Made by a program: the position numbers and the translations under genes
NCBI GenBank assembly: GCA_951799405.1
Contig: OX637334.1
Span: forward strand, 8,928,001-8,992,000
Reading direction: 5' to 3'
Length of the DNA stretch: 64,000 nucleotides
Source of the DNA: Agapetus fuscipes
Taxonomy: Eukaryota > Arthropoda > Insecta > Trichoptera > Glossosomatidae
The notes under the pieces: generated by a model
The model's database searches: none
What the model saw: the letters and a program-made list of their open reading frames with translations, nothing else
Told to the model about the DNA's origin: nothing
Shown here: in pieces, positions 3,301 through 54,200 of the stretch
Position numbering within the stretch: position 1 is the stretch's first letter
Layout: each line of letters starts with the position of its first letter

Positions 3301-6300
3301 TCAGCTGCCCGATGCTTTGAAGTGGGGAAGATGAGCTACCTCATTCCGAGCATCATAGTCGGATCTGGAGATTCTGAACTTGTTGTCCACAATATTGGAA
3401 GTGAGACGATTTGTTGGACAAAGGATCAGCTTCTCACAAGAGCTGTGGAGGCAGTAGAAGCAACTGAGGGCGATGAGGCAAGCCGAGGACCAGAAGTAAG
3501 GAGCACTTCTTGTTTTATTTTAGAGCACACTGATGTAGATGTTGGAGATATTTCTCTCCAAGAGAGAGCAGAGCTTAACAAGGTACTCGACACCTTTCAT
3601 TCATGTTTCGCCAATTCAACTACTGAACTTGGATGTACAAATCTTGGTCAAATGAAGATTAAGACGCTCAGTGATAAACCCGTCTACCATAAACCATACA
3701 GGTTGTCCGCATGTGAGCGAAAGGTGGTACAAGAAAAGGTTGACGACCTTCTTGCTAATGGAATCATCCGAGAGTCAGAGTCAGATTATGCTAGTCCAGT
3801 TATCCTAGTGCGCAAAAAGACTGGAGATTACAGATTATGTGTTGACTATAGAGCCTTGAACTCTATTACTGTGAAAGACAGGTATCCATTACCTCATATT
3901 GATGATCAGATCTGTAAACTTGCTAACAAGGTATACTTCACTAGTCTGGACTTAACGCAAGGCTATCATCAGATCCCTGTTGATAAAGACTCTATTCCAA
4001 AGACAGCATTCATTACACCAGATGGGCAATATGAATATTTGCGCATGAGTTATGGGCTGGCTAACGCACCTTCTGTATTTATGAGGGTTATTAAGAGAGC
4101 ACTGCAGACAATACCTAATGAGAATATCCTAATCTACATGGATGACATTCTAATACCAAGTGTTACAGTCAGTGAAGGATTGAGATTGTTGAAATCAGTA
4201 TTTGAATTGTTGAAAAGAGCAGACTTGAAGGTCAATTTGAAGAAATGTTCATTCTTGAAGACGGAAATAAGCTATTTGGGCCACGAAGTAACGGGAGATG
4301 GTGTAGCTCCTGGTTCAAACAAAACATTGGCCGTTGAAGAATTTAGAACTCCCAGAAATGTACATGAAGTCAGACAGTTTATTGGATTGACGAGCTACTT
4401 CCGCAAGTTTATCAAGGATTTTGCAAGTATTGCTCGCCCGCTGACAGAGCTTACGAAAAAGAATATGACTTGGATATGGGAAGATCCACAGGAAAGAGCA
4501 TTCCAAAAGTTGAAGGAAAAACTAGCTTCGCGACCTGTGCTAGCTCTGTATGACAATGAGCTCCCAACTGAAGTCCACACTGATGCTAGCAAATTGGGTT
4601 TGGGAGGAATATTGATGCAAATTCAAAGTAGCGGTGAGTTGAAACCTGTTGCATACTTCAGTCGAGTTACTTCCAAAGAGGAAGCTTTTTATCATAGCTA
4701 CGAGTTGGAAACTCTGGCAGTTGTTGAATCAATAAAGCGATTCAGAATTTTTCTAGTTGGAATACATTTCAAAGTTATTACAGACTGTACTGCTGTCAGA
4801 TCAACTTTTGCTAAAAAGGATATGATACCGAGAGTAGCCAGATGGTGGCTGATGATCCAAGAGTATGATTTGGAGATTGAATATCGTCCTGGACATCGTA
4901 TGAAGCATGTTGATGCATTGAGCCGTAATCCAGCTCCAGTAGATGTCAATACTATGATGATACAAGAGGATGATTGGTTACTTTCTTTGCAATTACAAGA
5001 TAGAAAGATCACATCCATATTGGAGCAACTAAACAGTGGAAAGGCTGATGCCGGTATTATAACAGATTTTTGTGAGAAAAATGGTAGATTGTACCGCAAG
5101 ACATTGCATGGAGACCGCCTTGTAGTACCAAGTATGGCTAAGTGGATGCTAATAAGGAAACATCATGATGATATTGGGCATCCAGGATTTGACAGATGTG
5201 AGAAACTCATCAAGAGTGAGTTTTGGTTCCCGAAGATGACTCGCTTTATTAGAAAATATGTGGCCGCTTGCATTAATTGTGCATTTTCTAAAGGGCAGTA
5301 TGGGAAGAAAGAAGGAAAACTCAATGTTGTTCCTAAGCCAGCCAAGCCGTTGCATACTCTGCACGTTGACCATTTGGGTCCTTTCCCAAAGAGTAAGAAT
5401 TGCAATAATTATGTTCTTGTGATTACAGATGCTTTCTCTAAGTTTGTGTTTGTTTACCCGACTCGCACTCTGAGTTCTGTGGAAACAATAAGGAAACTGA
5501 ATGAGATGTTCAGTATGTTTGGTGTTCCTACCAGAGTCATATCTGATAGAGGTTTGGCATTCAATAGTCGGCACTTTAAGCAGTTTGCCATCAGAAAGCA
5601 GTTTCGCCATATTTTAACTGCAGTGGCTACGCCGAGAGCTAATGGCCAAGTGGAGAGGACAAATCGCACCATATTGGATGCTATGCGTGCTTCAGGCACT
5701 GATGAGAGGTCATGGGATGGTGGTTTACCTGATATTATCTGGGGAATCAACAACACTGTGAATGCTAGTACCAAGTTTACCCCACACCAGTTGATGTTTG
5801 GACATGTAAGTCATATGTTAGCTGATGTTGGGGATGATCAAACTGAGGAAACTGTGGATGTTGCCAAAAGGTTGGAAGAGAGGCAAAAGGAAGCTGCAAG
5901 TAACATGGAAGTTGCTGCTCAGCGTATGAAGGCACAGTTTGATAAACGCCGTAAGGCAGCACGTAAGTATAACAAGGGAGACCTTGTATTGTGGAAGCAA
6001 GCTGTGACTAAAGGTGGAGCAGGAATCAACCATAAGATTGATCCTTTGTATGGAGGTCCTTACAGAGTGACTAAAGTTTTTCCAGATATTGATCGCTACT
6101 CTATTCGGAGCATCAAGGGTATGCGTGGATACAAGAAGTTCAGTGCATTGGTTGCTGTTGATGCATTGAGGCCTTACAAGGGAGCCTCAAAAGACTCAAG
6201 TGAGTCTGACAGCCAAGGGAGTGAGGTTGACAGAGATGACCTGATAGATCTCTTGGAAAGCTGATGTGAGAAGCCATTCTGTGGCTGTTGCAAGCGGGAT

Positions 6301-18300: not shown

Positions 18301-21300
18301 GTACAAAAAAGTAACGTAAGTTAAAAGTTAGTCGTCAAAGTTAACAAATACATAGTTTTACTTAGAAGATGGTAGGTTAGGTATTTAATAATTGAAGGGT
18401 TGAAGGGACTTGGATTTGCTATACAAGTAAATATAACAATTAAGAATTGTAAGTGTTTATTTCACCTATGAACTCTAATTTTAATTAAAAGAACATTAAA
18501 TCAACACTACAGTTATGAATTTCTTATTTATTTAGTTAGGTGCATGTTCTCTTTTAAGAAAATCAGCATATTAAAATTGTCGTCGGAGAGCGAGGATTGT
18601 TTTTAAAGATTTTAAATTATGATTACGGTCGTTAAACATTTAAAGAATGAAAAAAAAAGGATTTTACTGACCGCGCAAAAGAGAAGAACGATTTTCTCTA
18701 CTTTTCGTCGGAGTCATATCCGACGTCCTCAGGAGACGTGTGTCCTCTACAAAGAGGAACCACGAACTGTTGAATTATTGTTGTTTGATCGAGGCCGAAG
18801 GTTGTAGGTACTTTTATTAACCTTCGGTGATACATCCATAGATGTCGCAATAGCCCCAGTTGTACAAAAGGACGAAATTATGTCTTCTTGTGAAATCGTC
18901 CGATTAATGAAAGGGTGGATCATTGAAGTTAGTACTGGCCTCCATATACTGGAAAGTTTGTAGCTGTCATCTCTGTTGAAGTTGGGGTGCCTGTGTTGAG
19001 TGTGTATTTCGATTGCTTCCTTCACAAGTCGGGGGATGAGAAATCTTTCTTTAGATAGAATCATTGTTTTATCAAATCTGATAAGATGATTCACCCCTTT
19101 CTGTGAATGTTCACAAATAGCAGACTTGTTCGGGTTATTCGTCTTAACTGCACCAATATGTTCCTTCAATCGGGTGTTGATGCTGCGCTTGGTTTGTCCA
19201 ATATAAAAGGCTCCGCATTCGCAAGGGACCCCGTACACTCCTGGAGAATCCAACGGGGTACTATTTTTTACACTTCGGAGCATTTGAAATATGGAGGATG
19301 GAGGACTGAAAGTTGTTTTGATATTAGCCTTTAAGAGCACACGGCTAATCTTGTCTGTCAGACCTCGTATGTATAGTAAGTATGCTCCACTTCTTGGAAC
19401 GTCATATGAAGTGGTTTGCCGTACGTGAGTGTGACGATGGCGGCAGGCAGCGGTGGCGCCGCCGCCGCGCCATGCTCAGTTCAGTACCTACACTACAGCA
19501 GTAGGGTAGGTACCTAGCCAGTGTGGTGTGGGCGGCGCGCAATTATAAATGCTGTCAGCGGCATGTAACGGACTTAACTTAACAGAAGTTTAATTTAACG
19601 GAAGTTAAGTAAACCGTTAATATTTTTTCGGCTTAACTTAAAAGTTAAATCGATATACAATTTCTTAACTTCGTTAATTAACGATTAACGGATTAACGAG
19701 TTAATGCCCAGCTTTGGTTAGTGGTTATTTTGTTGTTGTTGAGTCTCTTAAGCTTTTTGACTATATTTTTTAAGAAATTGGCAAATTCTTACGCGCGGTA
19801 TCTCCATGGAATTTTGAGAGAGATCTGAGCTGAGATCATTGATAATAATTTAAAAAGATTGTGTGGATCGTTTTTAGTTTCAGCAATGACATCCAACCAC
19901 AAATAAGTTATTTTGTTTTTGACCAACATTCCGTACTCCTTCACACACATTTGTGAGTCTCCTGTTTTTTCAGTTTTTCATCTCTTCTCTAGTTTCAGCA
20001 TTAACTTCTTAGCTCAATGGTGATTTCTCTCGCTTGTTTTTCAATGGCCTTAAAGACAAAATTGAGCCTTGGCCCCCCAAACAATGGGTGATTTCTCGAT
20101 AGCACTGTTTTGTGGAGATTATCAATACATGCAATTTTAAGATAGTTTTGATAATGTGGCTTACTATATCCAGGTGTCCTTTATACGAGGCGATCATGAG
20201 GCAGGTGTTGTTGTACAAATTGGGGCGGTGCAGGTCTGCTCCCTGCATGACCAGGTACCTCACAATGTCTAGTCTGCCGTCGAAGCACGCTGCTCTCAAA
20301 GGTGTAGAGGCTGTAGCTGTGGCGTGGTCTAACTGGGCTCCGGCTTTTGCCAACCTCTGAAATGACAAACAAAACCAGGATAAGTTGTTGAACCCATAAA
20401 CAATTTTTATTATTATTCCCAGTCTATAGCTCAGTTGGTAGAATGCTTGCATTCCATGCAGAGATTTAGAGTTCAATCCCCGCCGAGGGTGTCAGAAATG
20501 GTTTCCCATATTGGTGTTTATTTCAAACACAAAATAAAACAGGCAATGTTTACTCAGCCCTTGAGAGCTGGAAATCCTCCGCTTGACATACGACCAGTCC
20601 CCTTACCTATAAAAATAAATAGATTGCACACATAGCATGCGACCCCTTCGGTGACTACTTTGTAAGAATTTGTTGTACATGTACATCTAGATTGCGATGC
20701 GAAATTCCATATTATCCAATAATGAAATTAAGTTTTAATAAGACATTTTTTTAGTGGACAATCATTTTCATTTTAAAAAATATTTTGTGATTTTTGATCA
20801 GATCAAATGCAATAACTGAAAATTAAAATATGTTTTTCATTACAAACATTACCATACTTGACTAACTGGAGGAGAACTTTAAGATTATTAACAGTAGGTA
20901 CTTTAATATAGGTACACTTTAAAGTGAAGGTAGAGGCTTTTTATATTATTTCATTAATTGCAGAGACATTCATTTTGTAATCTTTCATCTTGCTAAGACA
21001 AAGAATAAAACCAATTTTATCATACAATATTGTTATGTAAATATGAAATATAAATATTTAAAATAAGTAGGTATTTGTTATAGTTATAAGAATTCTGTAC
21101 CGTATTGTGTGGGTAGGAATCATTGAATAAAAATACTTCATTAAATAACAGAAGCATCGAGAAATAATGATTACTACGCCTTTCTGGAACTGTCCAGCGA
21201 ATATGGGTCTAGATTGTACTGTTTTGAAGAGTATAAGAAGGGTGTGAGTTGCTTGCAGAGCCAGTATTCTACAAGCTTTACAACTTTATACATTGAACCA

Positions 21301-24300
21301 AAACCAGTGAACAAAAACCAAGTGTAACGGAATAGTCGAGAATATCTTTGTGCAAATAAATTATTAAAAGTGTAAAATAAACAACTGTATAAGAAGACCA
21401 GTATTTTTAATTGAAAGACTGTTGAACCCTAAATTTGTAACAATATTATTGTTAAATGGCTTTTATACTTTTTAACCAGCTTCTGAAAAAAAAATCACCC
21501 TTTGCCACTGGTGTCCACCACAGAACCCAAAGTATAAAATATTAACATACTCTCCTCTCCCCTCGATTGTGTAAATAAAAAATGTATGGAAAAGACGACG
21601 GCACTCCTAGTGAGTGACTAAGTTTTTATAATTTGTTTATTTATACTTTGTTGTTATTATGCAATATTTTATACTCTGGATACAGGTGAAAATGAAATAA
21701 ACATAATTTACCTTGACAACCCTGAGATGTCCAGCACCGGCAGCAGCCCACAGTGCCGTGGCTCCGCTGATGACGTGCTCCTCAAACCTGACAGAGGCCT
21801 CAGCCTCCAGCCTCACCGGCGGCAGGAACTTCTCCAGCAGGATGCGCACAGCTGCTTCATGGCCGTGTCGGGCAGCGGCCACTAAAGGCGTGCAGCTGAC
21901 ACCATCCATGGTCACGGGCTGGAAACAGGATGTCAATTAGTAATACAGTAAGTGGTTTTTCACACTAAAAGCCCAGTTTGCTTATATTTATTTCTATATG
22001 GTGCCTGGTCGGAAGTCTAGTAGTGTATGGGGAAGTATGAAAGCTTTCACAATATGGTCTGTCCGGTAGTCCATAGACAAATCGAGCAGAATGTGTTGTG
22101 TGTAAAATGGACGTAATTGATTTTCACTTACAAATGACTCTTTCATATTTTTTTCAAACGAAGTACCCTGAGTATTAAACATTTACAAAAACTTCCGTTG
22201 ATCGCGTAAATAAAAAAAATTAACAAGTTTCATACAATGACCAGATCAGATGTATATTTCTTAAAATATTTTTTTTTCCGCCAGTGATTCGGACCACGGA
22301 CCCGCAGAATTTTAGTACAAGGTGATAGCCACAAGCAAGGTGGGTATAAAAAAGGTGTGTACACTAGGCAGTTTTGGTTGATTGCCATCTATCCCTCTTT
22401 AAAAGGTGCTGGTGTTTTTGTCACGGCAAGCTTATTGGCTGCCAAAAAATAGCACACGTCCTTTGTTTAACACCATAACAACAAAGATCAACTGTTTATA
22501 CTTTTGGTCAGGCAATGCGTGCGGTGTTGGTGCGGTGAACTATGATTGTGGGAAACGCAGGCAATCAAGGATCACCATCACACTTTATAAGAGGTGTCTC
22601 ATCTTAGTACATCCAGCTTGGCCACAAGACATTCATAGAAGGTAATATTACAAACTAGGAAATATATTCAATGCCGTGCAGAATGGAACCTAGAGTCAGA
22701 AAGAGTATGTATGAAGAAAGTGATGAATGTTGAAGAGATGAAAGAGGTATGCAAGGACAGAAAAAAGTGGAGAAACATCTGCGGAGGTGCCTGCCACCCC
22801 TAGTGGAATGGCAGCAGGATACAGTAACAGTGCATTATGAATTAAATGGGTATTATCATTCCACATAATCTATACATGTATAATACAAGTTGCAAAGATA
22901 TATTAACATTTAAAGCTCATATCAAATGCATGCCCACAAACAAGCATGTGTAGTTCGCGCTTACAAATGCTGAATGTGTACTAACAAATAAAATCCAAAC
23001 CTCAAATGAACATAGACCCTACAACTTTTGCCTACCTTCCCTGATACAGGAGTGACATTGGCAAAGTGAACCATTTTTTACAGTATGGGTGGTCCGCCTC
23101 ATACCAACCTATAAGCAGGGGCGATCATAGGAATTAAGACCTAGTTCGGCAACTTCTAGGTTTTGGGTGGTTTTCGACAGGAGAAGATTATTTTTTGTGC
23201 GCAACTCCAAAACAATAAAAATCCGATTTTTTTCATATTCCATACAGCCAGTGGCATTTACAATTTAATTAAACCAAAAACGAAAAACGAAAAACGAAAA
23301 AGAAACCTGTCGGAACAAAATTTGAAATAGCAATTATCTGAAAACAATGTTAAGAAACATATAACATAGTCCCTTCATGTATAAAACTGAAATAATATTT
23401 ACAATAATTACAGGTAGGTTTTTTTATCGGATATTTCACGAACTGTTATAAGAGAATAATGTAAGTTGTCTTATGACGGTTCGTGTAATATCCGTTAAAA
23501 AAAAACTGTGTAGTTATAATTATTGTAAACATGTAAAACGACCGTAATTCCAACCTGAACCTAAAAATGAAATAATATTGCATTAGTTGTCTTAAATAAA
23601 TAACCACCGTGGTTTTTTCTTGCTGTTTCAGACGGACCTTTAAAGTATCTATGAAACTCTTACCTTAGTCATTGTAGAATCTCTAGCATTATGTAGTTGT
23701 TCTTGTCCCACGACACTTACACATTAATAATGAAAAACTTAGTGGAAGCCGCATGAGCCACATCAAATATCAGAGTAAATGATTGATTATAATAAGACAA
23801 GTCAATAACTCGATACTTGAAGTGGCCTTAAGAAATGCCGTTTTTCTCAATTCTTCCAAACACACACAGTATCTAAGGCATAAAATTATCTACATCATGA
23901 AGAACTGAAGTTATCCATTGTAATAATTAAGTTTCACAATAAATCACAAAAACAATCACAGACGCCAAAAACAACGCGCGCGTGCTTGGAAGAAATTGGA
24001 GAATGAACAAAAAGTTAAAACTCACACACTTCTTTTCTGCATCTCTTTCATATATATCACCAGTTTATTTCTGTCTCTACTCTACTATGACGTAAGTGCG
24101 TTCCCAATTATTATTGTCTTTTGACCCAGGCAAGCCTGAGTTGAAGCGTACAGACGGTGGCCACATGTGGATGTATGAGTGCAATTTGGTTTAAATGTAT
24201 TGCCGCGCTGGAACCGAGCTACAGTTTAAAATCTCGTTGCCGGACCGCGCTGAGCGTATTGCATGCGTGAAAACGGTAGGCGCTAACTTACAAATGTCTA

Positions 24301-37680: not shown

Positions 37681-37971
37681 ACCGAAAAAATGGTTCCGAA
37701 TTCAAAAATATTTCAACCTCTTTGTTTTTTCACAAGTTTGTGCAGAAAGATAAGCCAAAACCTGATTTTAGACAAAAAGTGGACTTGATACCTTTAAGCT
37801 CTGAGGTCCAGAAAAGTGTAGTACACTTTACAGCGATCAACTGCTTACGTCCCGCCATGTTTTATAACTCTCTATCTTCAAACAGACGCCCGTTGAGTCT
37901 GCAGGCCCCTTTTTTTTATAAAAGCACAAATGTCGTGTAGGTACTTTAATATGATTAGACTTTCTTTATAT

Positions 37972-38444
37972 TGTTACGAAATTAGGGTTCAATTGTCTTC
38001 AAATTAAAAATACACAGGTCTTCTTCAATAGTTATTTATTTTACACAGTTACAAAATTTATTTTCACACTACTTTCTCGATTATTCCATTGGTTTCGGTT
38101 CACTGATCAGATGGCTTCGATGTGTTTGTTAGTCGCTATGATACTGGCCCGCTCTGCAGGCCATTCGCACCTTTATACTCTTCAGAGCAGTATGATCCAG
38201 AACTAAAGTCGCCAGACGGTTCCAGAGTAATTATTACTTCTCGACGCTTCACGTACTACCTAGAGATACAACCAAAATCCTACCTACAAATGTAATACAG
38301 AATTCCTATAATTATAACAAGTACCTACTTAGCCTAGAGAATTCTACACTTATACACAATTATCGATCCTACCTACCTATACCTATGAGGACTCTTATAA
38401 CTATAACTACCCATACTTATTTCAATATTTATATTTACATAACA
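37972..38444 (-). repeat. 3' LTR of the Gag-macrodomain element
   Basis: 473 bp, apparently identical to 41406-41878. On the minus strand it contains GAGTATAAAGG (TATA box) and GTAAAATAAATAAC (poly(A) signal). The stop codon of the gene is directly adjacent. Confidence 0.95.
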
Positions 38445-40742
38445 CTACCCCCCACCTAGACTGTTTCGTCCCGGAACAGTCTTGACTCTGTGTAGGTAGG
38501 GGCATGCTGATCCACGTCGACACCCTGTGGTCAGGAAGAAGTGGCAGTCCACGGATTTCTCCCCACTGGCTCTCGGCTGCGCTTGCTCGCAGCACACCAT
38601 GACGCTGATGCCGACTCCCGAGAACACTGCTTCAATCATACTCCGGATTATCCGCCAGTCTCGATTAGCGCGGCCGCCACCCATCTTCGGTATTGCCAGA
38701 CGCGCCTGCTGATCCTCCAACATGTAGTCACGCAGCTCAACAAGGCCGTCCCACAATGCCTTGTAGTCCTCTTCCAGGTTGCTGGAATCCGGGACAACCA
38801 GGCAGTATGCTTGTTGACGCCCCTTCGGTAGTCTCAGAGCTCTTCCTTGCGGGCTGCTCGAGGGTTGCGGTTCTCCGAATTTGTATCGGAAGACCCGTGC
38901 AATTCCTCTAGACATATCTAGATCTTCCGGTACACTGCATGCCAGTGTGTGGTCCCTAGTGACCTCAAATAAGTCCTTGTGGACTTCTGTGGTCACTCCA
39001 TGGCGAATCTTCTGTCCCTCTTGCACCTTGCTCCAGAACGTCTCAAACAGGGGCGCTTCTTTGGATGCGACGCATTTTTGTACTCTCTGGGCGGGCTGGT
39101 CATTGTTTGACCACTTTGCTCTTTGAGTTGGCCAGTGGTTATCCTTCATTCGAGCTCCCGCCTCCTTGGTGTTGCTGATCTTGGACTCCAGGTTGGCGAT
39201 GGTGTCCTTCGTCCTGGGCCCCTGCCCAGCTTCCAGCTGCTGGAGCTTAGTCTTAAGCCCCTTGTTCTGTCTCTCCAGGCTCAGCACAGTCTCGTGCAAC
39301 TCGTCCCTCTCGGCCTCCGCTGTTCGCCGGACCCTTTCACTGCTGGCCAAGTTCTTCGTCAGCTGCCTGTTCTCCGTCTCCATGACTTTGACCTTTCTCT
39401 CGGCATCCTGGAGCTGTTTCCTCAGCCGTTTGTTCATCTCCATGGTGGTCTCTACATCCTTGCGGTCGTCTTCCAATTTCTCCGGTCCTTGAGACTTTGG
39501 GCACCTCGCGCTCAGGTGTCCTTGCTGGCCACACGTCCAGCAGTGCGCCTTCTGTCTCGTTGGCTCAAGTTGCTGCAGCACTTTTTCTATTATTTCCTCG
39601 GTTGTAGGTAGTTTGACCTCCTCTGCCTTGATTGCACAAACCCTGGCGTGGCCCCTGATGGACTGTTTGACAGCCTCAAATTCGAGAGCTCGGCTTAGCG
39701 CCTCGTTCAACGTCTTCGGAAGAGCCAGCTTCACTGCTTGCTGCGTCTCCCATTCTCTCAATCCGTTCAGGAACTTGTCCACTGCCAAGCTCTCGCAGAT
39801 GTCATCAGGGAATGTCGGGTAAGCGTCTCGCACTAGGTGGACGATGTCCATCTCAAACTCCTGGAGGCTCTCGTTGGGCTTCTGCACCCTTGTGTTCAGC
39901 TGCGACTTGTACAGCTGCTCCAGGCACTTGTGGCCATAGCGCATATCCAAGCGCTGCTTCAGCTGCCCAAAGTCACCACGGTTGTCCAGGGGTATGGCCT
40001 GCAGAACCCTGAGAGCGTCTCCTCGGAGCGACAGGCTGAGAACCGAAGCCTTCTTCTGCTGGCTCCAGGCTCCCATCATGGCAGCCGTCTCAAAGAGGGT
40101 CAAATACTCCTCCCACGACGTCTTCCCGTCGAAGGTCGGAAGGTTGTGCTTCGCCAGCGAAGGGTCGTCATCCCCTCTAGTGACCCTGGTTGGAGTTGAG
40201 CATCCCTGTTCGATCTCGTCGTGAAGGCCTTTGGGGGATATCCTGGTGGACTCCATCTGGCACTTGTCAGCCAGCTCGGCACGCAGACGGTCTTCCAGGT
40301 TTGACATCCGAGTCTCCATTTCCCCCTTCAGGGCCGAGAGGTTGGTTGTCATCTTCTCCTCCATTTCTCCTTTTAGGGTTGTGAGATTCTTATTGAGGTC
40401 CTCCTTCAGGGTAGTGAGGCTGTCAGCCATCTCCACCTTCAGGCTGGTCATCTTTTCCTCTAGGGTCTTGGCGTTGTCAGCCATCTCAGTCTTCAGTCCT
40501 GTCAGGTTGCTGGTTAGCTCCTCCTTCATGGACTTTGTGATGCTGATATTTAGCTCGTCCAAGGCGCGGTCCCCTCCAGACGCCATGACAAAATATGCCG
40601 GGTCTTCGCCTGATTGTTCCAAGGCCTCTATGAGGCGTGCTTGTAAGGCTGCCTTTCCTCCTGAGGTCTCCAGGTCCCTCTCCAGAAGCTCATTTTTAAG
40701 CTCAGTGACTTTGAGGTCCTTGACGTTCACTTTAGTTGCCAT
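38445..40742 (-). CDS. SAP-Gag-CCHC-macrodomain-CCCH protein, 765 aa
   Basis: From ATG at 40742: a SAP-like motif (about 6-42, VTELKNELLERDLETSGGKA), a long heptad/11-mer coiled coil (about 60-160, LTTLKGEMEEKM-type units), and a retrotransposon Gag/capsid domain (about 195-355). A CCHC knuckle follows (C401, C404, H409, C414), then a second coiled coil (about 422-505). Residues about 583-716 align with OARD1/TARG1-like macrodomains: VHKDLFEVTRDHTLACSVPE, LDMSRGIARVFRYKFG, YKALWDGLVELRDYMLE, LAIPKMGGG. A CCCH finger ends it (C733, C741, C747, H751). The usual macrodomain GLD aspartate is replaced (GGGRANRDW), so binding may exceed hydrolysis. Inferred role: particle protein with RNA/DNA binding, and ADP-ribose recognition that could counter or use host ADP-ribosylation. 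A captured host gene is less likely, because LTRs, PBS and PPT frame it. Confidence 0.9.
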   Translation of the reverse strand: MATKVNVKDLKVTELKNELLERDLETSGGKAALQARLIEALEQSGEDPAYFVMASGGDRALDELNISITKSMKEELTSNLTGLKTEMADNAKTLEEKMTSLKVEMADSLTTLKEDLNKNLTTLKGEMEEKMTTNLSALKGEMETRMSNLEDRLRAELADKCQMESTRISPKGLHDEIEQGCSTPTRVTRGDDDPSLAKHNLPTFDGKTSWEEYLTLFETAAMMGAWSQQKKASVLSLSLRGDALRVLQAIPLDNRGDFGQLKQRLDMRYGHKCLEQLYKSQLNTRVQKPNESLQEFEMDIVHLVRDAYPTFPDDICESLAVDKFLNGLREWETQQAVKLALPKTLNEALSRALEFEAVKQSIRGHARVCAIKAEEVKLPTTEEIIEKVLQQLEPTRQKAHCWTCGQQGHLSARCPKSQGPEKLEDDRKDVETTMEMNKRLRKQLQDAERKVKVMETENRQLTKNLASSERVRRTAEAERDELHETVLSLERQNKGLKTKLQQLEAGQGPRTKDTIANLESKISNTKEAGARMKDNHWPTQRAKWSNNDQPAQRVQKCVASKEAPLFETFWSKVQEGQKIRHGVTTEVHKDLFEVTRDHTLACSVPEDLDMSRGIARVFRYKFGEPQPSSSPQGRALRLPKGRQQAYCLVVPDSSNLEEDYKALWDGLVELRDYMLEDQQARLAIPKMGGGRANRDWRIIRSMIEAVFSGVGISVMVCCEQAQPRASGEKSVDCHFFLTTGCRRGSACPYLHRVKTVPGRNSLGGG

Positions 40743-41405
40743 TTTTTTCAAAATTTACGTCAAAACAAAAATATTTTCAAATTTATTTAATACAAGTTTT
40801 GAGTTTTATATATCTAGCTGTTTTGAATACGTACTTTAGCAAAAATAATATTTTTTTCTGATTACACTGATTGGTAGGTACTGTCTTTTAATATTTATTT
40901 TTAAATCACCAATATTTTGAACATAATAATGTCTGATAGTACATAATTATTTATTTCGTCTCAAGTCTTTCAAACACACAGGTAGGTACTTAATGTACAT
41001 TCACACACTTGTAAACAAAGGATAGTTATTCAAAAACTTTTTCTCGATGAATCTGGAACGTTCTTTTGTAATATTTTTCAAGATTTTTATTTATTTATTT
41101 TATTTTTTTAATCACACACAATAATAAAAAAACTATGGTCCAATTTGATGACTTTCTCAATGCGGTAAAATAGTCATTATGTTATGTCCAGAATTATGTC
41201 CCATATGATGTTCCAGAATTTATAAGCAACTTGCTTTTGCGTCTTTTCTTTTAACAAAAATTTATTTAAACACTTGTTTTCACAAAAGTCAGTTCACACA
41301 AAGTTCAATTTGAATAAAGTTCATTTTAACACTATTTAATTTATTTTATTTATTTTTAGACAGAAGATCTTAATTTTTCTTGACAATTCCGCACCTGACG
41401 CCAAT
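40743..41405 (-). promoter_or_regulatory. Leader of the Gag-macrodomain element
   Basis: AT-rich untranslated leader between the 5' LTR and the ATG. The first bases on the minus strand (ATTGGCGTCAGGTGCGG) are a plausible primer-binding site. No other coding sequence was found. Confidence 0.6.
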
Positions 41406-41878
41406 TGTTACGAAATTAGGGTTCAATTGTCTTCAAATTAAAAATACACAGGTCTTCTTCAATAGTTATTTATTTTACACAGTTACAAAATTTATTTTCA
41501 CACTACTTTCTCGATTATTCCATTGGTTTCGGTTCACTGATCAGATGGCTTCGATGTGTTTGTTAGTCGCTATGATACTGGCCCGCTCTGCAGGCCATTC
41601 GCACCTTTATACTCTTCAGAGCAGTATGATCCAGAACTAAAGTCGCCAGACGGTTCCAGAGTAATTATTACTTCTCGACGCTTCACGTACTACCTAGAGA
41701 TACAACCAAAATCCTACCTACAAATGTAATACAGAATTCCTATAATTATAACAAGTACCTACTTAGCCTAGAGAATTCTACACTTATACACAATTATCGA
41801 TCCTACCTACCTATACCTATGAGGACTCTTATAACTATAACTACCCATACTTATTTCAATATTTATATTTACATAACA
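41406..41878 (-). repeat. 5' LTR of the Gag-macrodomain element
   Basis: 473 bp, apparently identical to the 3' LTR, with the TATA box and poly(A) signal in element orientation. Flanked outside by ATAT. Confidence 0.95.
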
Positions 41879-41882
41879 ATAT

Positions 41883-42267: not shown

Positions 42268-45200
42268 GCATGAACCTCTTATTCATAAAGTAACATGTTG
42301 AACGTTATTTCGCGCTCGCAAATCCGCTGCGTTTCATTCTTATCCAGGGAATACACCTCGTTGGGCGATAGGACTCCATTCGACCGCCGCATTGTGGTGT
42401 GCTGTCAATACTTTAAATTGTGAAAATAACATAGTAGTGATTTAGTTTTCCCTCAATTAACTGTCATTTTACCGTCCAAACGGTGATATTGATATATATT
42501 TTCAGCCATAACCTCTTCATGTAAACGTGCCTCATTTACCTGTATAGGTACTCCTTAATACAAATTTGCTTGTTCAGTTGCATGACGCAATCTATAACTG
42601 AATGCACATAATGTATTGATGACATGACTTTTGATTGGCACATTTTCAAAAAAAGAATTAAAGCAAAATAAGATAAACATTCCTTTTTTTAATTTTTAAA
42701 TTTGATTTTGGAATACAAAAGTGAATTCAAAAAAAGAATAATGCACTCTTATTTAAACTGCACGTCTATGTGTGCAATTTTTTACCACTTTATCCCCTAA
42801 TCTATAGCGTAGCATATTTTCTCTGTTACCAAATGAATAGATGATGATGATGATTTGTATAGCGCCGTTTCGTGACTGCTGTCACTGCAAGGGCGCTTTC
42901 AGGCTTGACGCGGCGGTGAAGGATCTTATTTCTTGTAAAGACTGAGTATACCAAGCTGGTCCTAAGACTTGGGCTGCAAAAAAAGGTCAAATATTGTCTT
43001 GATACCCTCAGATTTCAACCCAAGAGTTCCAACTTAAAAAGCGGATACTCTACCAGCTGCACTATTGACCAGTACTTCCAAGTATAAAACTTCATGGCAA
43101 AACTCAATCATAGCATTTACCTAAATGTGTGGAAAGTAAAACAGCGCTTGTGATCATTTAATTAAAATAAATATGACTGGCAAGATTAGCAAATTCTTCA
43201 TTTATTGGGCCGTTCACAGGTGGTGATCCAATCTCTCACATCCACTGAACTGCTCTTGGCGTAGCTTCGTGGAGGTCTTTCAGGCCAGGAGGGTGTCTTC
43301 TGGTGGGGCCCATCGCCGCTATGTGCTAGACAGTCTAGTTCTCCGCTCCATAGTCGCATCCTAGAGATGGAGCAGGAAGTTGCAACAACCTTGTTTAGTG
43401 CGGACCCAGTTTAAAGTCGTCTAGGTACATAGCTCTTAGAAAATTGAATCTTGGGAGTTCCTGGTGTGGCAGAGTAATCAGTTTGTGGTTTTTTACATTT
43501 TGCTCCTTCCATATGGACTTACTGCGATCATCAATTGTCCGGATGGGATTTCTGGACTTGATGATGATTTGTAAAGTGCCGTTTTGTGGATTCTTTCACT
43601 GCAAGGGCGCTTGTAGAATTGATGTCGCGGCAAGGGGGTCTTCATTCCCTGTTTGAAGGATTCAGCACTTTTCCTGGCACACATGTCAGGGGGCAGCCGA
43701 TTCCAGGTGGACGGTCCTGCAATTGCGAACAAGCAGTCACCAAACAATGTGGTCAATATCTTCAAGACTTGAGTCATTTCTTTGGATGCTTGTGGATGAA
43801 AGTAAAGAGAAAAAACAAGGTGTACTGAGCTTTCACAAGAAATGAGAACTGACTCTGTTGGCATCAGGAAAGCCCCTAGTTAAAAGTCAAATGTTTTTTT
43901 TAAAACAATCAAAACACTATGGTTGAGTTTAAAAAGGTGAAGTTTTGTACTTGGGTACAGACTTTTTATTATTATTTTTTTTCAGAACCCTAAGATGAGT
44001 TCTAAAAAGGACAAAAAGGCAGGGAAGGGGGGTGAAGGCAATGCTAACATCAAGGAGATGAGTCCGTGGCCGGATTACATTGAAAAGAGGATCGCGCTTT
44101 GGGATAAGTTAAAGGCTAATTATTTGGCGGAGCTAGCTGCTAAACCTGATGTTAACATTGTGGTTACGTTGCCAGATGGGAAATTGATTGAAGGCAAGGC
44201 TTGGAAGACTACTCCATATGAAATTGCCATGGGGATCAGGTACCATTTTCTCTTGTTAATTATTCATAGGAGTTTCAATTTCTGCATCAAAAAAGTAGAC
44301 ATCTCATATATATCGACGCTTGAAAGGCAATCTTGACTAAGCGACACTGAGTAAACTTTACAGGAGAGCCATTTAAAGTTTTTTTTTTGAGAAAAAAAAT
44401 TGTAGAAATTTGACAACTTGTCGAATTAGAATCATTTCAAAAGCCTTGTACATATTTATTTTTTCGTTATTTAACGTCATTTAAATAAATAAGCGCGTAC
44501 TGTAAGTTACTTAAAAAATGTCGCTTAGATAAAAATTACCTCAATTTAAGAACAAGTAAAAATATCTAAGCGATCACCGTAAGATTTGCAACAACGAGTA
44601 AAAGTATCCAAGCGACCGTTGTTTTGTAAACAGAAACAAGTAAATTTAGGCATATCAACATATTTCACAATATAAGTACGGGAATAATTATCTATGGATA
44701 TATTGATGTCAAAAATATGTTAGGTAAATTTTCCTAAATATTTTAAATGCTTTCTAAGATCGTAGAAAATATAACTAACTTTAATGTAAGTTTCAAAGTT
44801 TCCCATCGTAAGCGACATTTCCCCACAACGTCCTCATAGAAAGGCCTATAATTAAATAAATGCAGTTTTAGATGATACAAACATATTTTTATTTGTGAAC
44901 ATATTTCTTAGACATGGATCAATTTAATCGATTTCGTCATCAAGAATGGTCAAATTAGAAGTAGAAGAAATAAGTTGTGTGAGGAGTCATATAACAGTGA
45001 TGGAATTATGCTTAGATAAGGAAATCTTTTCTTTTTGCTTACCTCGCAAGGGACACTGTGTGATGGGAAAAAATACACATTTTAGTAGATCTTTCAATTA
45101 TTTTATTGAGTAGGTAAGCAATATCTGGATTGTTGTAGGTATTCGAATAAATAAACATATTACAATTGGATGTTTATTTAATTATTACTGAATTAAAATT

Positions 45201-48200
45201 AATAAAATATTACTTAATTATAAATATTGAAAACAAAACTGCATTATTATTAATAAAAATTGATTACAAAATTACAAAAAAAACTAAATTATATTAAAAA
45301 AAACACAAATACAAACGGATAAAAACAAATATACGAAAAACATCATACAAAATACAAAAAAAAAAAATAATGGGGGAGTTTTACCTACCATTAAAACTCT
45401 TATTATGTTTCTATAGATGTCTGGAGTCCATATTATGAGAGAAACAATCACTTTTTCCCTTTTATGTGGTTTTTTTAGTCTATTCCTGGGTCTTTGATTT
45501 GCACTTTTTTACACTTTAGGCACTTTTCTACTCTATGGTCGCTTTTTCCCCATTTCCTGTTTCCCTATTTCCAGTTCCCCCATAACCCGGTCGCCATTTG
45601 TCATAAAGCTCATAATACACCAGGTAGGGGTTACCTGGACTCCAGACATCTATAGAAACATAATAAGAGTTTTAATGGTAGGTAAAACTCCCCCATTATG
45701 TGTTCTGAGAGATGTCTGGAGTCCATATTATGAGAGATCTGTCTATTATCTCCTGGTGACCGGGGACGTCTTTATTTGATATTAACTGGTTGAAATAGGG
45801 AGGGATCTTCTGGAGCTGTATGTTTCAACATCTCTTTCTGATAGTATTTTCTGAAAGTGTTTTCTATTGGGTAGTTCTCCAGCCAATTAAGTGATGCGAC
45901 CGCTGAACGTGTGCTGCCGGGAGTGGCCTCTACTCCTGCTGATCTTAGCGTGTTCTTTACCCATCCTCCTATGATTGTTCTTGTAGCTGCCTTCACTTGT
46001 CCTCGGGTGCTGATGAACAGGTTAAATATTTTGTCCTGATCTCCTTTCGCGTGATAGTTCAATCAGCTTCCTTATCCAAAAGACTGGGTTGACGTTGTGT
46101 TCCTTGGATTCCAGAAGTGTATCTGTTTTTGATCCAACAAATGGAATTAACACAATTGATGTGCCTTCGTCTAGAATGTTTCCTTCTGTGATATTTAGCA
46201 AGGTCAGATCGTGTACTCTTCTTCCTGAGGATAACAGAAGTAAGATTGCTGTTCTACACGCAACTTCATAGAGAGAATCTGAACGAGGAGTGTTCCTGAC
46301 TAGCCAGTCCTTTACTATCTGCGGATTCCACACAGGGGACTTAGGAGGGTTAATCCTTACCATTGCTATGGCTTTTAATGTATGTTTCACTAGGAAATCT
46401 GAGCTGAGATTCTTTTCCATCATTGGGTTGCAGAAGGTTACGATGGCTGACTTGTGTACCAGTATAGTCCTGTATGACAGTTTTTTGTTTATGAACAGTT
46501 GCGCTAGATACCTTGCCAATTGATTAGGAGATGATGTGTTGGGATGGGTATTTTCCGCCAGTATCCAGCGGAACCATCTTTGCCAAGCAGGTTTATATGT
46601 GTTGAGTGTGGAAGCTCTCCATCCTGACAGGAGCAGTCTTTTCTCTTCCGCGTTTTGAAAGATTGCGCATGAGTCTGTGGAGTCTCTGGATACGTAAGTT
46701 GAACTCATGTGTGCCGTCGTGGATGCGAACAGGTCTATATCTGGTACTCCGAAATGATTGAAAATGGCCTTCGTTGCTGTTGATAAAAGATGCCACTCTG
46801 GAGGGGATCTTCCTCTTGATAGGTGATCCGCGTCTCCGTTGTATCTTCCCGGTAGGTACTGCGCTGTTAGCGAGATTTCCCATTGGCCTGCCAGAGTCAA
46901 CAGATCTCGGGTAAGATTTAGGAGTGTTTTGGATCTGGTGCCCCCTTCCTTGCGGATGTAGGCGACTACTGTCTTGTTGTCTGATTGTACCAGAATTTCG
47001 GAGCCAGAAAGGTCGTGCGCTGTGCGTTGCAGGGTTGTGAAAACAGCGAACAACTCTTTTCGTTTGGAGTGCCGCTTCTTTTGTTTGAACGGTCCACTGT
47101 CCTGACAGCATCAAGTCGTCCAGAGTTGCTCCCCAAGCTTAGTCTGACGCATCTGTTGTCAAGAAACGTTCGCAGGTTTCCCTGTGGATGGAACTTGATT
47201 CGTTCGCATTCCCTATCCCCCACTCTATTACTTGTAAGCTGTCCTCGGTCATTTGTCATGACCTTCTTGGTGACAGGTGCTTCAGTGGCCTGCTCGCTAT
47301 CTGCAATTGTCTGCAGTGGAGGCGACCATGAAGCTGGCAAAGTTTAGTCTTCCTAGGAGACTTTCCACCAGTTTTAAGGACCATTTTCGAGAAGTCAGTA
47401 TTGCTCGAAGTGAGTGGCACAATGCCTCTTTCTTCCGGTAAGAAAGACCTTCTTGGTGACAGGTGCTTCAGTGGCCTGCTCGCTATCTGCAATTGTCTGC
47501 AGTGGAGGCGACCATGAAGCTGGCAAAGTTTAGTCTTCCTAGGAGACTTTCCGCCAGTTTTAAGGACCATTTTCGAGAAGTCAGTATTGCTCGAAGTGAG
47601 TGGCACAATGCCTCTTGCTTCCGGCAAGAAAGACCTTTTTGGTGACAGGTGCTTCAGTGGCCTGCTCGCTATCTGCAATTGTCTGCAGTGGAGGCGACCA
47701 TGAAGCTGGCAAAGTTTAGTCTTCCTAGGAGACTTTCCGCCAGTTTTAAGGACCATTTTCGAGAAGTCAGTATTGCTCGAAGTGAGTGGCACAATGCCTC
47801 TTGCTTCCGGTAAGAAAGGAATTTGCAATTGTTATGCGTGTCCCAAACGATTCCCAAGTACTCTAATTGTTGAGTGGGGAAGAGCACTGACTTCTGGAGA
47901 TTTACATACCACCCCAGAGATTGTAGGATATCTACTGCTAGATGCGATTGCCGACGAAGATCGTCCTTGGATTGGTTCGCAAGGAGGAAGTCGTCGAGAT
48001 AAACGATTGTCCGGATATCTTGTCGCAGCAGTAAGTAGTTGGGCTACCCAATTTGTGAGGGTTGCAAACATTCTGGGGGCAGATGAAAGGCCAAAGATGC
48101 GATTGCCGACAAAGATCGTCCTTGGATTGGTTCGCAAGGAGGAAGTCGTCGAGATAAACGATTGTCCGGATATCTCGTCGCAGCAGTAAGTAGTTGGGCT

Positions 48201-51200
48201 ACCCAATTTATGAGGGTTGAAAACACTCTGGGGGCAGATGAAAGGCCAAAGATGCGATTGCCGACAAAGATCGTCCTTGGATTGGTTCGCAAGGAGGAAG
48301 TCGTCGAGATAAACGATTGTCCGGATATCTCGTCGCAGCAGTAAGTAGTTGGGCTACCCAATTTGTGAGGGTTGAAAACATTCTGGGGGCAGATGAAAGG
48401 CCAAAGATGCGATTGTCGACAAAGATCGTCCTTGGATTGGTTCGCAAGGAGGAAGTCGTCGAGATAAACGATTGTCCGGATATCTCGTCGCAGCAGAAAG
48501 TAGTTGGGCTACCCAATTTGTGAGGGTTGCAAACATTCTGGGGGCAGATGAAAGGCCAAAGGGCAGACTTGTCATCTGAAGTAATTCTCCTCGATAGACC
48601 AGTCGCAAAAATCTCCGATGTGCTATTGGGAAATGAAAGTAAGCTTGCGATAGGTCTATTTTCGACAACCAATCGTTTGGCTGCAGAAACTCTGACACTT
48701 TGTAGTGGCTATGAGTTTGAACGGAGCCGGGTCTAGGAAGAAGTTTTAACGATTTCAGGTTGAAAATTATTCTCGGGGAATCGTCCGATTTGAGTGTTAG
48801 GAACATTTTTGATAAGAAACTCTGACACTTTGTAGTGGCTTATGAGTTTGAACGGAGCCGGGTCTAGGAAGAAGTTTTAACGATTTTGGTTGAAAATCAT
48901 TCTCGGGGAATCGTCCGATTTGAGTGTTAGGAACATTTTTGATAAGAAACTCTGACACTTTGTAGTGGCTTATGAGTTCGAACGGAGCCGGGTCTAGGAA
49001 GAAGTTTTAACGATTTTGGTTGAAAATCATTCTCGGGGAATCGTCCGATTTGAGTGTTAGGAACATTTTTGATAAGAAGCTGGGAGATGACTCCGCTGCC
49101 TCTATAACTCCGGATTCGGTCATTTCCTTTATTTGAGAGTCCATTTCGGGTGAAGGACTCGTCTGGTATAGCATTAAGTGGCTCCCTCTGGGAAACCAGA
49201 TAATCTATCCTTGGGTCCAAGACAACCCTAAGCCGTTTCTGACGCCGCGGCGGTGAACCTGATTCCGAAGTGTCATATCCGCATTTTTACATCCACACAT
49301 TGAGATATATACTATAGAGTCGCAACCATCATACAATCAGGAAAAAAATGTCAAGCCGAAGTCCGTTGGAAACGTTTTAATGCAGATGCAAGGAGACAAT
49401 CAGTTTTTATCCAGCTTCTGCATCGAATAACGCGCACTGTACTCTCAGGTTAAAACGAGATAGCAATAATTTTAGCAAACACATGGCAGACTTCAAACAC
49501 GACAAAAAGGGCTGGATGTCATAATTCTCTGATATAAAATTCCCCTACAGTAGTACTATTAAAAATGAATGTCAGATTAAAATGAAATGTAACTTTAGTC
49601 CTTTACTTTTAAAAATAATATGAGCAAGTCTTCAACCAGCAACCCGGCAGTATACAACCTTATTGTCGGTGTCAAATGTGTAACATTAATTAAAATATAT
49701 TTAAGAAAAACTATTTTTTTTTTCAAAAATAAATTGTTTTAATAATTAATCTGTGCTAGTATGTTGTGTTTTTTTTTTTTTTTCATTTGTGCATGTTGTA
49801 AAATTGATCAAGTTCACAAACAATGGTGTTTGAAAACTCCAATCACAATATTTAGACATTTATGGCAATATGTATTACCACCTGTCACGTCCGTTCGCTG
49901 TGTAAGTCTGCGTGAGACTGACGAGCCTCAAAATCGGGTTTTTCTCGAGTACGACTTTTGACTTACTACAGGGTGCTACGTGTTTCGAGCAACGTTACGT
50001 CTCTAGTATATATACCTCAATGCATCCACATCACCTGAATCCTGTGAGATTTCGGCGGGAGGTGGCCCTTTTTTGTTATCACAACTCATAACACTGATTT
50101 TGATGTTATCTAAAGTAAAAACTCCGTTAAAATAACGAAAAACGTTTTTCGTAAATGCGTGGCATACCCACAAAAATACATTATATTTTTGTAGGTATGC
50201 CACGCTTATACACTTTTAAACACCACAATTTCGCCTGTTTTAGTTTTTAATTGTTCACAGGGACACAAGATGGTAAAATAACACTCTTTTTTAAATGTTT
50301 TTGCCCAGGAATATTGTCAATTCACTCAAATTTTCGAAGGTGAATTCAACTGACATGTGACCACAAGGGAAAAATGACGCTTTATGACAAATGGCGACCG
50401 GGTTATGGGGGAACTGGAAATAGGGAAACAGGAAATGGGGAAAAAGCGACCATAGAGTAGAAAAGTGCCTAAAGTGTAAAAAAGTGCAAATCAAAGACCC
50501 AGGAATAGACTAAAAAAACCACATAAAAGGGAAAAAGTGATTGTTTCTCTCATAATATGGACTCCAGACATCTCTCAGAACACATAATAGACATTTACGA
50601 AAAACAAATTACAAAAAAAACTTACTAAATTAACAAAAACTAACTGAATATTCATAATTAATAAAGACAAAATCAAACAGATAAAAACAAATATACGAAA
50701 AAAAATGGTCTAGTATATATCGATTAACATACATCTAGAAATATTTCAAAGGTTAAATCAGTATATCAGGATCCTCAATGTTCGATTCCAGCAAAGTATC
50801 AGTGACATCAACTCTGTGTGTGATATTTGTAAATTCTTGTTTAAAGCAATTGGGAATGACATTATCAGTGCATAATTTAATTAGATCGTTATATTTTTGT
50901 ATAGAGATGGGTAGCTGTTTAAAGTAACATTGTGAAGGTAATATTTTAAGTTTTGATTGTACTTCAAGATTGAAAGACTGCGTAGTGGGGTTCATCGATG
51001 TTTTATATGTAACAGTTTGTTTATTTTTTTTAAACGTCATAATACGAATCTTACTTATCTTACCGGTTAGGTTTCCCTTGAAATACTTATCACTTATACT
51101 ATCCCATTTTATGAAGTTTTCATAGCTTAATCTTTCGACTTCGAATGGTGATGGGTTTTGTCTGGCAGTTGCGAACACTGTAAACCATTGCGATGGAGCA

Positions 51201-54200
51201 TACACAGTGGTGTTTTTCAATTTGTTTTCGATTATGGCATGTACTGTGTCCACGGGCATATACGTGTGTCCTGACAAAAGAAAGTTGATTTGGATAGTAT
51301 CAATATTGATACATTCTTGCAAAGTTGAATGCAGCATTGCCAAAACAGTGCGATTGCGATTTTGGCCGGGACAGCAATCGCAATATAGAAGTAAGCGCCT
51401 TACGCTTCCCCTGGTATCCACCGATTTGATGTATTTGTACAGCACAGTAGCGATTTCATTGGCACCACGCTTTCCGTTGACCTCATCCCAATAATAACAG
51501 AAAACATTCCTGGTACCATTTTCATACACACATAAGTTATAAACTGCTAGTTTTCTGCCGTAATAGAGCAACATTGACTGAGCATATGGCGTATTAAGCA
51601 CCTTTTCAAGATCAAAACTAGCACATAAAGTGGAAGGATCACTTTTATGTATTTGTTTGTGGACTTGAAATCGGGCATAACTTTCCTCTTTTTCTATTTT
51701 ATGTTCCACCTTCTCTTGTTGTTTTTCTGTATCATTTTCAAATTGAAGACATTTAAGACATTTATCCTTTTTTGGAACATGGAATCCGATATTAAAATTT
51801 TCTGAAAATATTTTACGAAAAATTCTTTCACTCACTACATCCACCCCTTGATTGATAAAATGCTTTCTGTAGATGTTGTATAATGTGGCAATATTTTTAT
51901 AATCTTGTGGAAGGTAAACTTTACTTGAGTCTTGACGACAGTAGTGCGAAGGCACTGCTGGTAAATTTTTAATAAATTTCATCACGGTATCTATAGTCGT
52001 TGACTTAGTTTTATTTGGTGGTTCACATTTTCCTCTCATATCTTCTTTTGCACATCCCCAAGCAGCAGATTTTACAATATTGAGAATTGTTTTATTGCAT
52101 ACGTTGAGAGTTGCTGCCAAAAATTGTTGACATATTTGTCTTTTACCTTCTCCTTCGTTAATAAAATATTTGAATGTGCAATTGCGGATTTCGGAATCTG
52201 ATCTCTTGCGCTTAATATTTTCTTTTTTAGATACAGATACCAACCAGTCACGACGGCGCAGTGGATCGAGAGACCAATAATGTTTATTTATACTTTCTCT
52301 CCTCTCTTCAGTAATCAAACCACAATCATTGCCACATTTTTTTCCAGAACAAGGATTATTTAATACCCCTTTTTCGGCAACAATATCACCTTTATTTGTC
52401 GTATACTCTTTTCCTGAGTTTCTGTTTCGCGACCGCTCTTTTCTTAAATTAGTTTTTTTAATCTTAAGAGCTGAATCTGCGATCAATTCTTCTTGTGTGG
52501 GAAGTATGTTGTTTTTGCCTTTCGTGCCCTTTTTTCCCCTTTTATTTCTTTTTCTTTTAGTTCCAGGTGTTTCCAAATCTTCGTCTGATGTATCTTGCCT
52601 ATTTGTTAGATCTTGGCCTTCTGACCAATTAATTATCTGAGTCGTATTCGTCAGCGTAAGTAAAAAAATCTTCTTCATCGGACAAATAATCAATATATTT
52701 AATATCTTTTTTTGATTTCCTTTTACCTTCATTCCCTTTGATATTATTATTAACGTTACTGGGACCAGCAGATGTAGATGGTTCGTTTTCTGTTTGATTA
52801 ATTGTATCTGGTTCGGCAGTTAAAATGGTATTCAAATTATGATCTTCCAATGTTGTTGATTCCAAAGTTGATTCAGGAAAATTTGTTACACCCCTTTCAG
52901 GTAAGCAAACAACGGTCTCAGGAAACTTTAAAGCATCCAAAGTAGTAATGTTAATGGATTCTTGAGTTGGTATTTCGTGAAGCTGTCTTTCGGTGTCATT
53001 AGTAGGCCAACAAATTGTTTCATTGCAGTTTGAATCAACAATGTCAGTCAGATGGCTTCGATTTTCGCATGTACTGTCCTCCGAATTTTTCGAAGGCACC
53101 TGTAAAGATTAATCAAATTATAGAATAATAAGTTAGATTTCGTTTTTGAGTATCATATTAGAATAGAATATAAAAATTCTTCATTGATGTCACAATACTC
53201 TGGACATATAGAAAATAAACAAAGATTTTTTGATAAATTTCAAAAGGCGGGCTTATTACCTGAGGTAAACTCTTCAAGCCATCTTTGAATATACCAGAAA
53301 CTACTTACAAATATAATTATACATGTTTTAATCCAATTGAAATAGTAGGTATATAGAAAGAAATTAATAAAAATCAAATTGTGTTGTACATAGTAGACAA
53401 TGAAAGAAGATAATTATCAGTATTATGGGCCACTAGTCGTATGGAAACTTTATCTAGTCAACACCATTACGATCAACTAAGCATGTACGACTATAAAATC
53501 ACCAAAACTATGTTTCGTGAAAAGTAAAAAACAAGGAGCTTATCAAAAATCACCTGTTATTTGATTTCAAGATCGTGTAAAAAGGACATGGAATGACTTG
53601 TGTGAAAAATAGTTTAAGAATTGTTACATATTGGGAATAAAAAAACTTACCGAATTTCCATCGAAATTCAGTTGTTTCCGACAATTCAAACTACTTCGTA
53701 TTCCGGCATTTGCTAATGCAAGGTCAATTAATGAAGAAGTACGACGGCGTCTTTGAAGATCCATTATCTTAACTGTAATCAAAATAATGAGGAAGGTAAT
53801 TTTAAAAAAGCATGAAATAAATTAATTTCATTAATTTTGGCAAAGGTAGGCCAAGTACTTTGATGGAATACTTACTATAACTAAGTGAAATACGCTCCGA
53901 AATTGCGATATAACGAGATGCACAACCACTCCAAGCGACGTCTCAAACTCAACTGTCGTATTTTAAACAACGCATTAGTGATGATTTTAGTACGATCGTT
54001 GTTCCTAAGCGCAGATATTATTATTTTTTGTATCCACGTAAAATATCTAAGCGACATTCACAGCACATCATTAGGTGGAGTAAAATTATCTATCCGACAT
54101 AATTAATAATAAAAGTTATCACGTATAATATCTATGCGACATTTTATACCATCTCACGGTATTGGGAAAATATGTCTAACCTACATTTTTTATGTAAAAA

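Follow-up and report, generated by a model that had tools for sequence, protein, structure and literature searches.

A pol-less LTR element in Agapetus fuscipes whose Gag protein ends in a TARG1-like macrodomain and a CCCH finger

In the genome of the insect Agapetus fuscipes, a single open frame between two LTRs joins Gag to a macrodomain-like segment and a CCCH finger, and no pol is present. This locus raises the question of where such a tail came from and what it could do in an element of this kind. We analyzed the whole surrounding stretch of 64,000 nucleotides (hereafter the window; G000:C2:8928001-8992000) and searched the 618-Mb assembly of the same genome (148 contigs).

The element is 3,907 bp long (window 37972-41878, minus strand) and presents the paired LTRs, TG..CA ends and short target-site duplication of LTR retrotransposons. 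The original prediction of one 765-aa frame between identical LTRs, without pol, was confirmed by the LTR comparison and by reading the domains along the ORF. The features are, from the 5' side of the element:

41879..41882: target-site duplication ATAT, element's 5' side
41406..41878, minus strand: 5' LTR, 473 bp, TG..CA ends, matching the 3' LTR completely
41389..41403, minus strand: TGGCGTCAGGTGCGG, read from the sequence, a probable primer-binding site that lies 2 bp inward of the 5' LTR
38445..40742, minus strand: single ORF of 765 aa, Gag fused to a tail matching the Pol C-terminus
40593..40742, minus strand: SAP domain, residues 1-50 (Pfam PF02037, 1.4e-8)
40173..40592, minus strand: first coiled coil, residues 51-190, hypervariable between copies (diversity about 0.14 over codons 46-135)
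39558..40172, minus strand: Gag capsid-like region, residues 191-395, similar to ten Gag relatives
39483..39557, minus strand: CCHC zinc knuckle region, residues 396-420 (Pfam PF00098, 0.0015)
39108..39482, minus strand: second coiled coil, residues 421-545, in the place of the relatives' PR-RT-RH-IN
38991..39107, minus strand: linker, residues 546-584; similarity to the Pol C-terminus begins at codon 547
38592..38990, minus strand: TARG1-like macrodomain with P651 and A692 in place of the catalytic pair, residues 585-717
38481..38573, minus strand: CCCH finger, residues 724-754 (C733, C741, C747, H751; Pfam PF00642, 0.0011)
38448..38456, minus strand: polypurine tract GGTGGGGGG, read from the sequence; it overlaps the final codons of the ORF
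37972..38444, minus strand: 3' LTR, 473 bp, 0/473 differences from the 5' LTR
37968..37971: target-site duplication ATAT, element's 3' side

These matches bear out the SAP-like, Gag and CCHC segments that had been predicted; the ten Gag relatives (P0004-P0013) present 50-70% identity across residues 198-368 or so of the 765-aa protein. The CCCH finger, with ligand spacing C-x7-C-x5-C-x3-H, scores 19.3 bits against PF00642, slightly below the cut-off of 20.5, and CPSF4 fingers came up in a profile search. The second coiled coil gave nothing below E 0.08 when queried against the 131 other proteins that we found.

No Gag match was found elsewhere in the window, and ARAGORN and Rfam gave no matches across it. 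On the opposite strand, positions 21028-21444 are LTR-like (about 70% identity to the element's LTR) and are probably an old solo LTR. A Ty3/gypsy Gag-Pol of 1471 aa occupies a single frame at 1849-6264 (plus strand; gag, protease, RT, RNase H and integrase), and its Pfam table holds no macrodomain. A frame at 46022-48839 (minus strand), which we take to be DIRS-like, has a weak match to a phage-integrase N-terminus; overlapping repeated frames upstream of it look RT-like by eye only. The window also contains a 688-aa frame with DUF7869 at 50753-52819 (minus strand; 3.5e-12) and, about 2 kb from the element, a segment resembling the N-terminal exon of a cytoplasmic threonyl-tRNA synthetase at 43995-44289 (plus strand; 6.8e-7).

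The macrodomain-like segment matches TARG1/OARD1 with an E-value of 7e-10 from sequence alone and of 1.6e-26 in a profile search, and a structure comparison placed six TARG1 entries at the top. DarG models also match it (1.8e-4 and 2e-4). A protein search with residues 566-765 of the window protein returned nothing at E 0.001, and scans of viral contigs and genome contigs found no relative. In phage sequences, tblastn gave matches in 185 records; in the 20 listed, all of these lie over the macrodomain region only.

We then estimated how widespread and how old the element is. The whole protein as a query scored 59 copies in the genome, and the second coiled coil scored 150 places of 241 candidates, each with 98-100% identity. 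Open frames of at least 756 aa are present in 127 of these 150 places by manual count. We read 50 copies (L001-L050), namely the 30 best by protein score and the next 20 of the other 29. Only two present an internal stop, and C733, C741, C747 and H751 are retained in all 50. Both LTRs lie within the DNA read for the copy in 46 of the 50 cases; the pair is identical in 21 of these 46, and all 46 together present 39 differences over 21,665 positions (about 0.2%). The two sides of the 4-bp target-site duplication agree in 34 of 44 cases. The near identity of the LTR pairs indicates that the family is young. Diversity among the 50 copies is 0.002-0.008 from codon 406 onward, relative to 0.14 over codons 46-135 and 0.04 in the SAP domain. 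Distances in SAP, Gag and tail are uncorrelated among copies (Mantel r 0.01-0.04), which suggests that the copies are mosaic.

The origin of the tail was traced through its relatives. The whole 765-aa query found 13 proteins, of which two from Aromia moschata (a beetle; Cerambycidae) match the Gag part and, as a separate match, residues 545-762. One Aromia tail in turn found 182 proteins, and the 120 listed, which are stronger matches than the other 62, are all from A. moschata. When these 120 proteins were re-scored, SAP was found in 81, Gag in 112, the integrase C-terminus in 117, the macrodomain in 120 and CCCH in 117. The macrodomain stands behind the integrase C-terminus in all 117 proteins that have both, at a distance of 23 residues in 113 of them. 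The Aromia proteins are gene models (P0002, P0003 and P0015-P0132), and their listed domains do not include RT, probably in part through the length ceiling of the search (1.75x query length). They share the order SAP, Gag, macrodomain and CCCH with the window protein, where these domains are present. In contrast to it, they carry the integrase C-terminus and parts of pol, they keep the catalytic K and D in 117 of 120 cases, and they have no match to the second coiled coil. The fusion of residues 546-765 is not unique: this segment corresponds to the C-terminus of Pol in Ty3/gypsy-like elements that have a macrodomain and a CCCH finger behind the integrase. A similarity to Pol reaching back to residue 469 was discarded once composition correction moved its start to 545; tblastn showed no such break for two of six queries, with alignments extending to about 469. 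Three Aromia proteins (P0090, P0099 and P0131) look like Gag-macrodomain fusions, but we base no claim on them, since they are gene models and the spacers of P0099 and P0131 match other family proteins.

Full-length relatives are also present in the A. fuscipes genome. An Aromia integrase-macrodomain query scored 70 places of 2,805 candidates, and these fall into two bands, which we grouped by identity and frame length. Among the 70 scored places, family A comprises 36 with 55-57% identity to the query, and family B comprises 34 with 52-53% identity and frames of at least 1422 aa in 30 of the 34. Four copies of family A and two of family B were read. In a family A copy (L051), Pfam identified RT, RNase H, the integrase zinc-binding, core and C-terminal domains and CCCH in one open frame, and tblastn found the macrodomain-CCCH. 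This copy, the one family A copy scanned, presents the RT-RH-IN order that is characteristic of Ty3/gypsy.

Family B matches the window element closely in its tail. Both copies read (L055 and L056) have tails 96-97% identical to the window tail, and the macrodomain of L056 is 100% identical to it over 138 tree columns. The DNA similarity begins at window codon 547, behind the integrase, and amounts to 95.3-95.5% identity over 617 bp. In the one copy checked, the family B frame has the same ending residues and stop as the window frame. When compared with the 5' LTR, the LTR of a single family B copy (L059) reaches 92% identity in one alignment and 87% in another that runs from the ORF end. An in-frame stop between gag and pol, which frames of 1422 and 1843 aa might have implied, was rejected, since at the junction of one family B copy pol lies in the -1 frame relative to Gag. 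The family B Gag, read in one copy, is only 75% identical to the window Gag over 76 aa (DNA: 82% over 222 bp). Family B is therefore not the immediate source of the Gag half, whose lineage is more distant than that of the tail, as the 75% identity of Gag and the 96-97% identity of the tail indicate. The window element reads as a pol-less mosaic relative of family B, with a similar LTR and a tail that matches the C-terminus of Pol in full-length relatives; this last relationship was missed by the original prediction.

Searching with human OARD1 (150 of 995 candidates scored) yielded two further kinds of sequence. Three short frames with 43-45% identity to human OARD1 in the search table (L057, C31:352918; L058, C52:33000; and C31:266644) are probably host TARG1 exons, and L057 and L058, of host type and 46-47% identical to the human protein, keep K and D. 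A third retroelement family, family C, presents a TARG1-like macrodomain with K/D directly before an integrase zinc-binding region recognized by eye, in frames of up to 1253-1266 aa (L060, G000:C21:11274390-11275150; L061, C12:10913160-10913900). In a tree, Aromia and families A and B are placed opposite the host sequences and family C with a branch support of 96/97, and family C forms long branches with a flagged odd composition. Two separate macrodomain captures are likely but unproven, because the argument comes from the tree alone and the family C branches are long and of odd composition.

The host exons bear on an alternative origin of the window protein, in which a cellular gag-like gene was fused to host TARG1 and came to lie among repeats by chance. 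Host-type TARG1 exons are indeed available in this genome (L057 and L058), but they are only 21-27% identical to the tail, against 96-97% for the Pol tails. The LTR pairs, the target duplications (34/44 equal) and the 150 scored dispersed places also argue against a host gene. The LTR and copy-number evidence refutes this explanation for the window copy, and we consider it extremely improbable.

The likely activity of the macrodomain was judged from its catalytic residues. In TARG1, catalysis uses Lys84, and according to the available text of PMC8501950 a K84A mutant rescues neither cells nor bacteria from DarT. In all 50 copies of the window element, the positions of TARG1 K84 and D125 are P and A, so the residues of a TARG1-type ADP-ribosylhydrolase are absent. 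We take Asp125 to be the partner of Lys84. The pair is likewise P/A in family B (2/2 copies read) and R/A in family A (two of the four copies read were aligned). K and D are both kept in 117 of the 120 Aromia proteins (in the other three, K falls in a gap twice and D is replaced by G once) and in both family C copies read (L060 and L061). The macrodomain resembles TARG1/OARD1 (C6orf130) and DarG in sequence and retains the equivalents of D20, G43 and G123, compared as single residues; it differs from them in the replacement of K84 and D125 and in its fusion to Gag and CCCH. With the catalytic pair replaced, the proposed removal of ADP-ribose by this domain is unlikely, and binding of ADP-ribose is possible.

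These residues weigh on the idea that the tail is a counter-defense enzyme. PARPs act against viruses, and the tail could strip host-PARP ADP-ribose from the particle or its nucleic acid. The TARG1/DarG-like domain and the K/D pair kept in Aromia relatives (117/120) and in family C (2/2 read) would fit such a role, and TARG1 reverses DNA and RNA ADP-ribosylation according to the parts of PMC8501950 and PMC6582358 that we could consult. However, the pair is lost in the copies read of the window element and family B (P/A) and of family A (R/A), and loss of the lysine in K84A abolishes TARG1 rescue in the accessible portion of PMC8501950. We therefore regard an enzymatic counter-defense role of the tail as improbable.

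We further analyzed whether the tail is under selection. Over the macrodomain, silent changes number 11 and replacement changes 19 among the 50 copies (P = 0.23 for an expected replacement fraction of 0.71), and changes common to at least two copies are 4 silent and 2 replacement (P = 0.063). Over residues 546-765, changes common to at least two copies are 7 silent and 5 replacement (P = 0.033), and singletons are neutral (15 silent and 33 replacement). An apparent selection on the macrodomain in the 30 best-scoring copies (11/11; P = 0.022) was discarded, as these are a biased subset and P is 0.23 with 50. Constraint is clear in SAP and Gag (shared silent/replacement changes of 15/4 and 19/11, respectively), and the first coiled coil (window 40173-40592) presents little constraint, with 50 silent and 109 replacement shared changes. 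Constraint on the tail of the derivative is suggested rather than established, because the overall macrodomain P is 0.23 and shared changes alone lean that way.

The tail could be a passive remnant: the element would be mobilized by its cis signals (LTR, leader and packaging) and perhaps by Gag, and the tail would be baggage that remains open through youth. The neutral singletons of the tail, the overall macrodomain P, the missing catalytic pair and the very low diversity of the tail (0.002-0.008) are consistent with this. Yet the CCCH ligands persist in 50/50 copies with stops in only 2/50, and the tail varies least within the protein (maximum distance of 2.0%, relative to 8.5% for SAP and 6.2% for Gag) without covariation, as if a single tail had spread onto different Gags. 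We consider that a tail without function is possible but rather doubtful.

Our preferred reading, which we hold to be moderately probable, is that of a young pol-less LTR element carrying Gag and a parental Pol tail, helped in trans, with the macrodomain acting as a non-catalytic binder. Gag would have been joined, through the added coiled coil, to a family B-like Pol tail made of linker, TARG1-like macrodomain and CCCH finger. In the parent, the tail would be made only on Gag-Pol, as the -1 frame of pol in one copy read suggests; in the derivative, every Gag molecule would carry it, because the parental pol needs a frame change and the derivative tail is in frame with Gag. The fusion protein may co-assemble with parental Gag and Gag-Pol, and RT and integrase may be borrowed in trans through the similar LTR ends. 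The CCHC and CCCH motifs may bind the element's RNA. The macrodomain may bind ADP-ribosylated protein or nucleic acid ends, and this would hold the particle or the integration complex at a target, or act as a shield, rather than remove ADP-ribose. From the literature alone, and as far as the consulted parts of these papers go, possible targets would be chromatin factors that carry ADP-ribose (SIRT6 and KAP1 at L1; PMC4695847) and ADP-ribosylated nucleic acid ends (PMC6582358) or bases (PMC8501950).

ADP-ribosylation has a role in retrotransposon silencing, as in the action of SIRT6 with KAP1 on L1 (PMC4695847, in part), and ZAP, a CCCH protein of the PARP family, restricts L1 (PMC4441479, in part). 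Among known elements, the nearest in build is the plant TR-GAG, which the available section of PMC8704663 describes as non-autonomous and transposition-capable, with two LTRs, one Gag ORF and no pol, and as similar to a potentially autonomous family. It shares with the window element the Gag ORF, the absence of pol and the presence of a full-length relative. In contrast to TR-GAG, the window element does not encode Gag alone: it adds a Pol-derived macrodomain-CCCH tail and an extra coiled coil, and it resides in an animal genome. The nearest precedent for a retroelement with a macrodomain is found in fish, where macro-domain ORFs occur in epsilon-like endogenous retroviruses (Basta et al. 2009, cited in the accessible text of PMC4977317). 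Those are vertebrate retroviruses with additional ORFs, whereas here the macrodomain lies behind the integrase in a Ty3/gypsy-like Pol, accompanied by CCCH, and has moved to Gag in the derivative. As to the suggestion that this architecture had not been described in LTR elements, our literature search found no macrodomain in those of insects (most subscription journals being outside its coverage), but the fish retroviruses (PMC4977317) call for a qualification. The portions available of PMC10499221 and PMC8672886 contain the Basta reference only and nothing about macrodomains in elements.

A broader scenario can be put forward tentatively, as one that we find less probable than otherwise. Insect Ty3/gypsy-like elements would have captured TARG1-like macrodomains at least twice (behind the integrase with CCCH, and just before the integrase), with the removal of ADP-ribose from their own nucleic acid ends or integration complex as the original use. 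One lineage would then have lost catalysis and become a reader, and a pol-less parasite would have put this reader on every Gag, changing its dose in the particle.

Large insect retroelement families with TARG1-like domains in Pol, in two positions and in both catalytic-looking and dead forms, would offer a natural setting in which to test the importance of ADP-ribose for integration or packaging. The derivative also represents a route by which a parasite element may alter how much of a Pol domain the particle contains.
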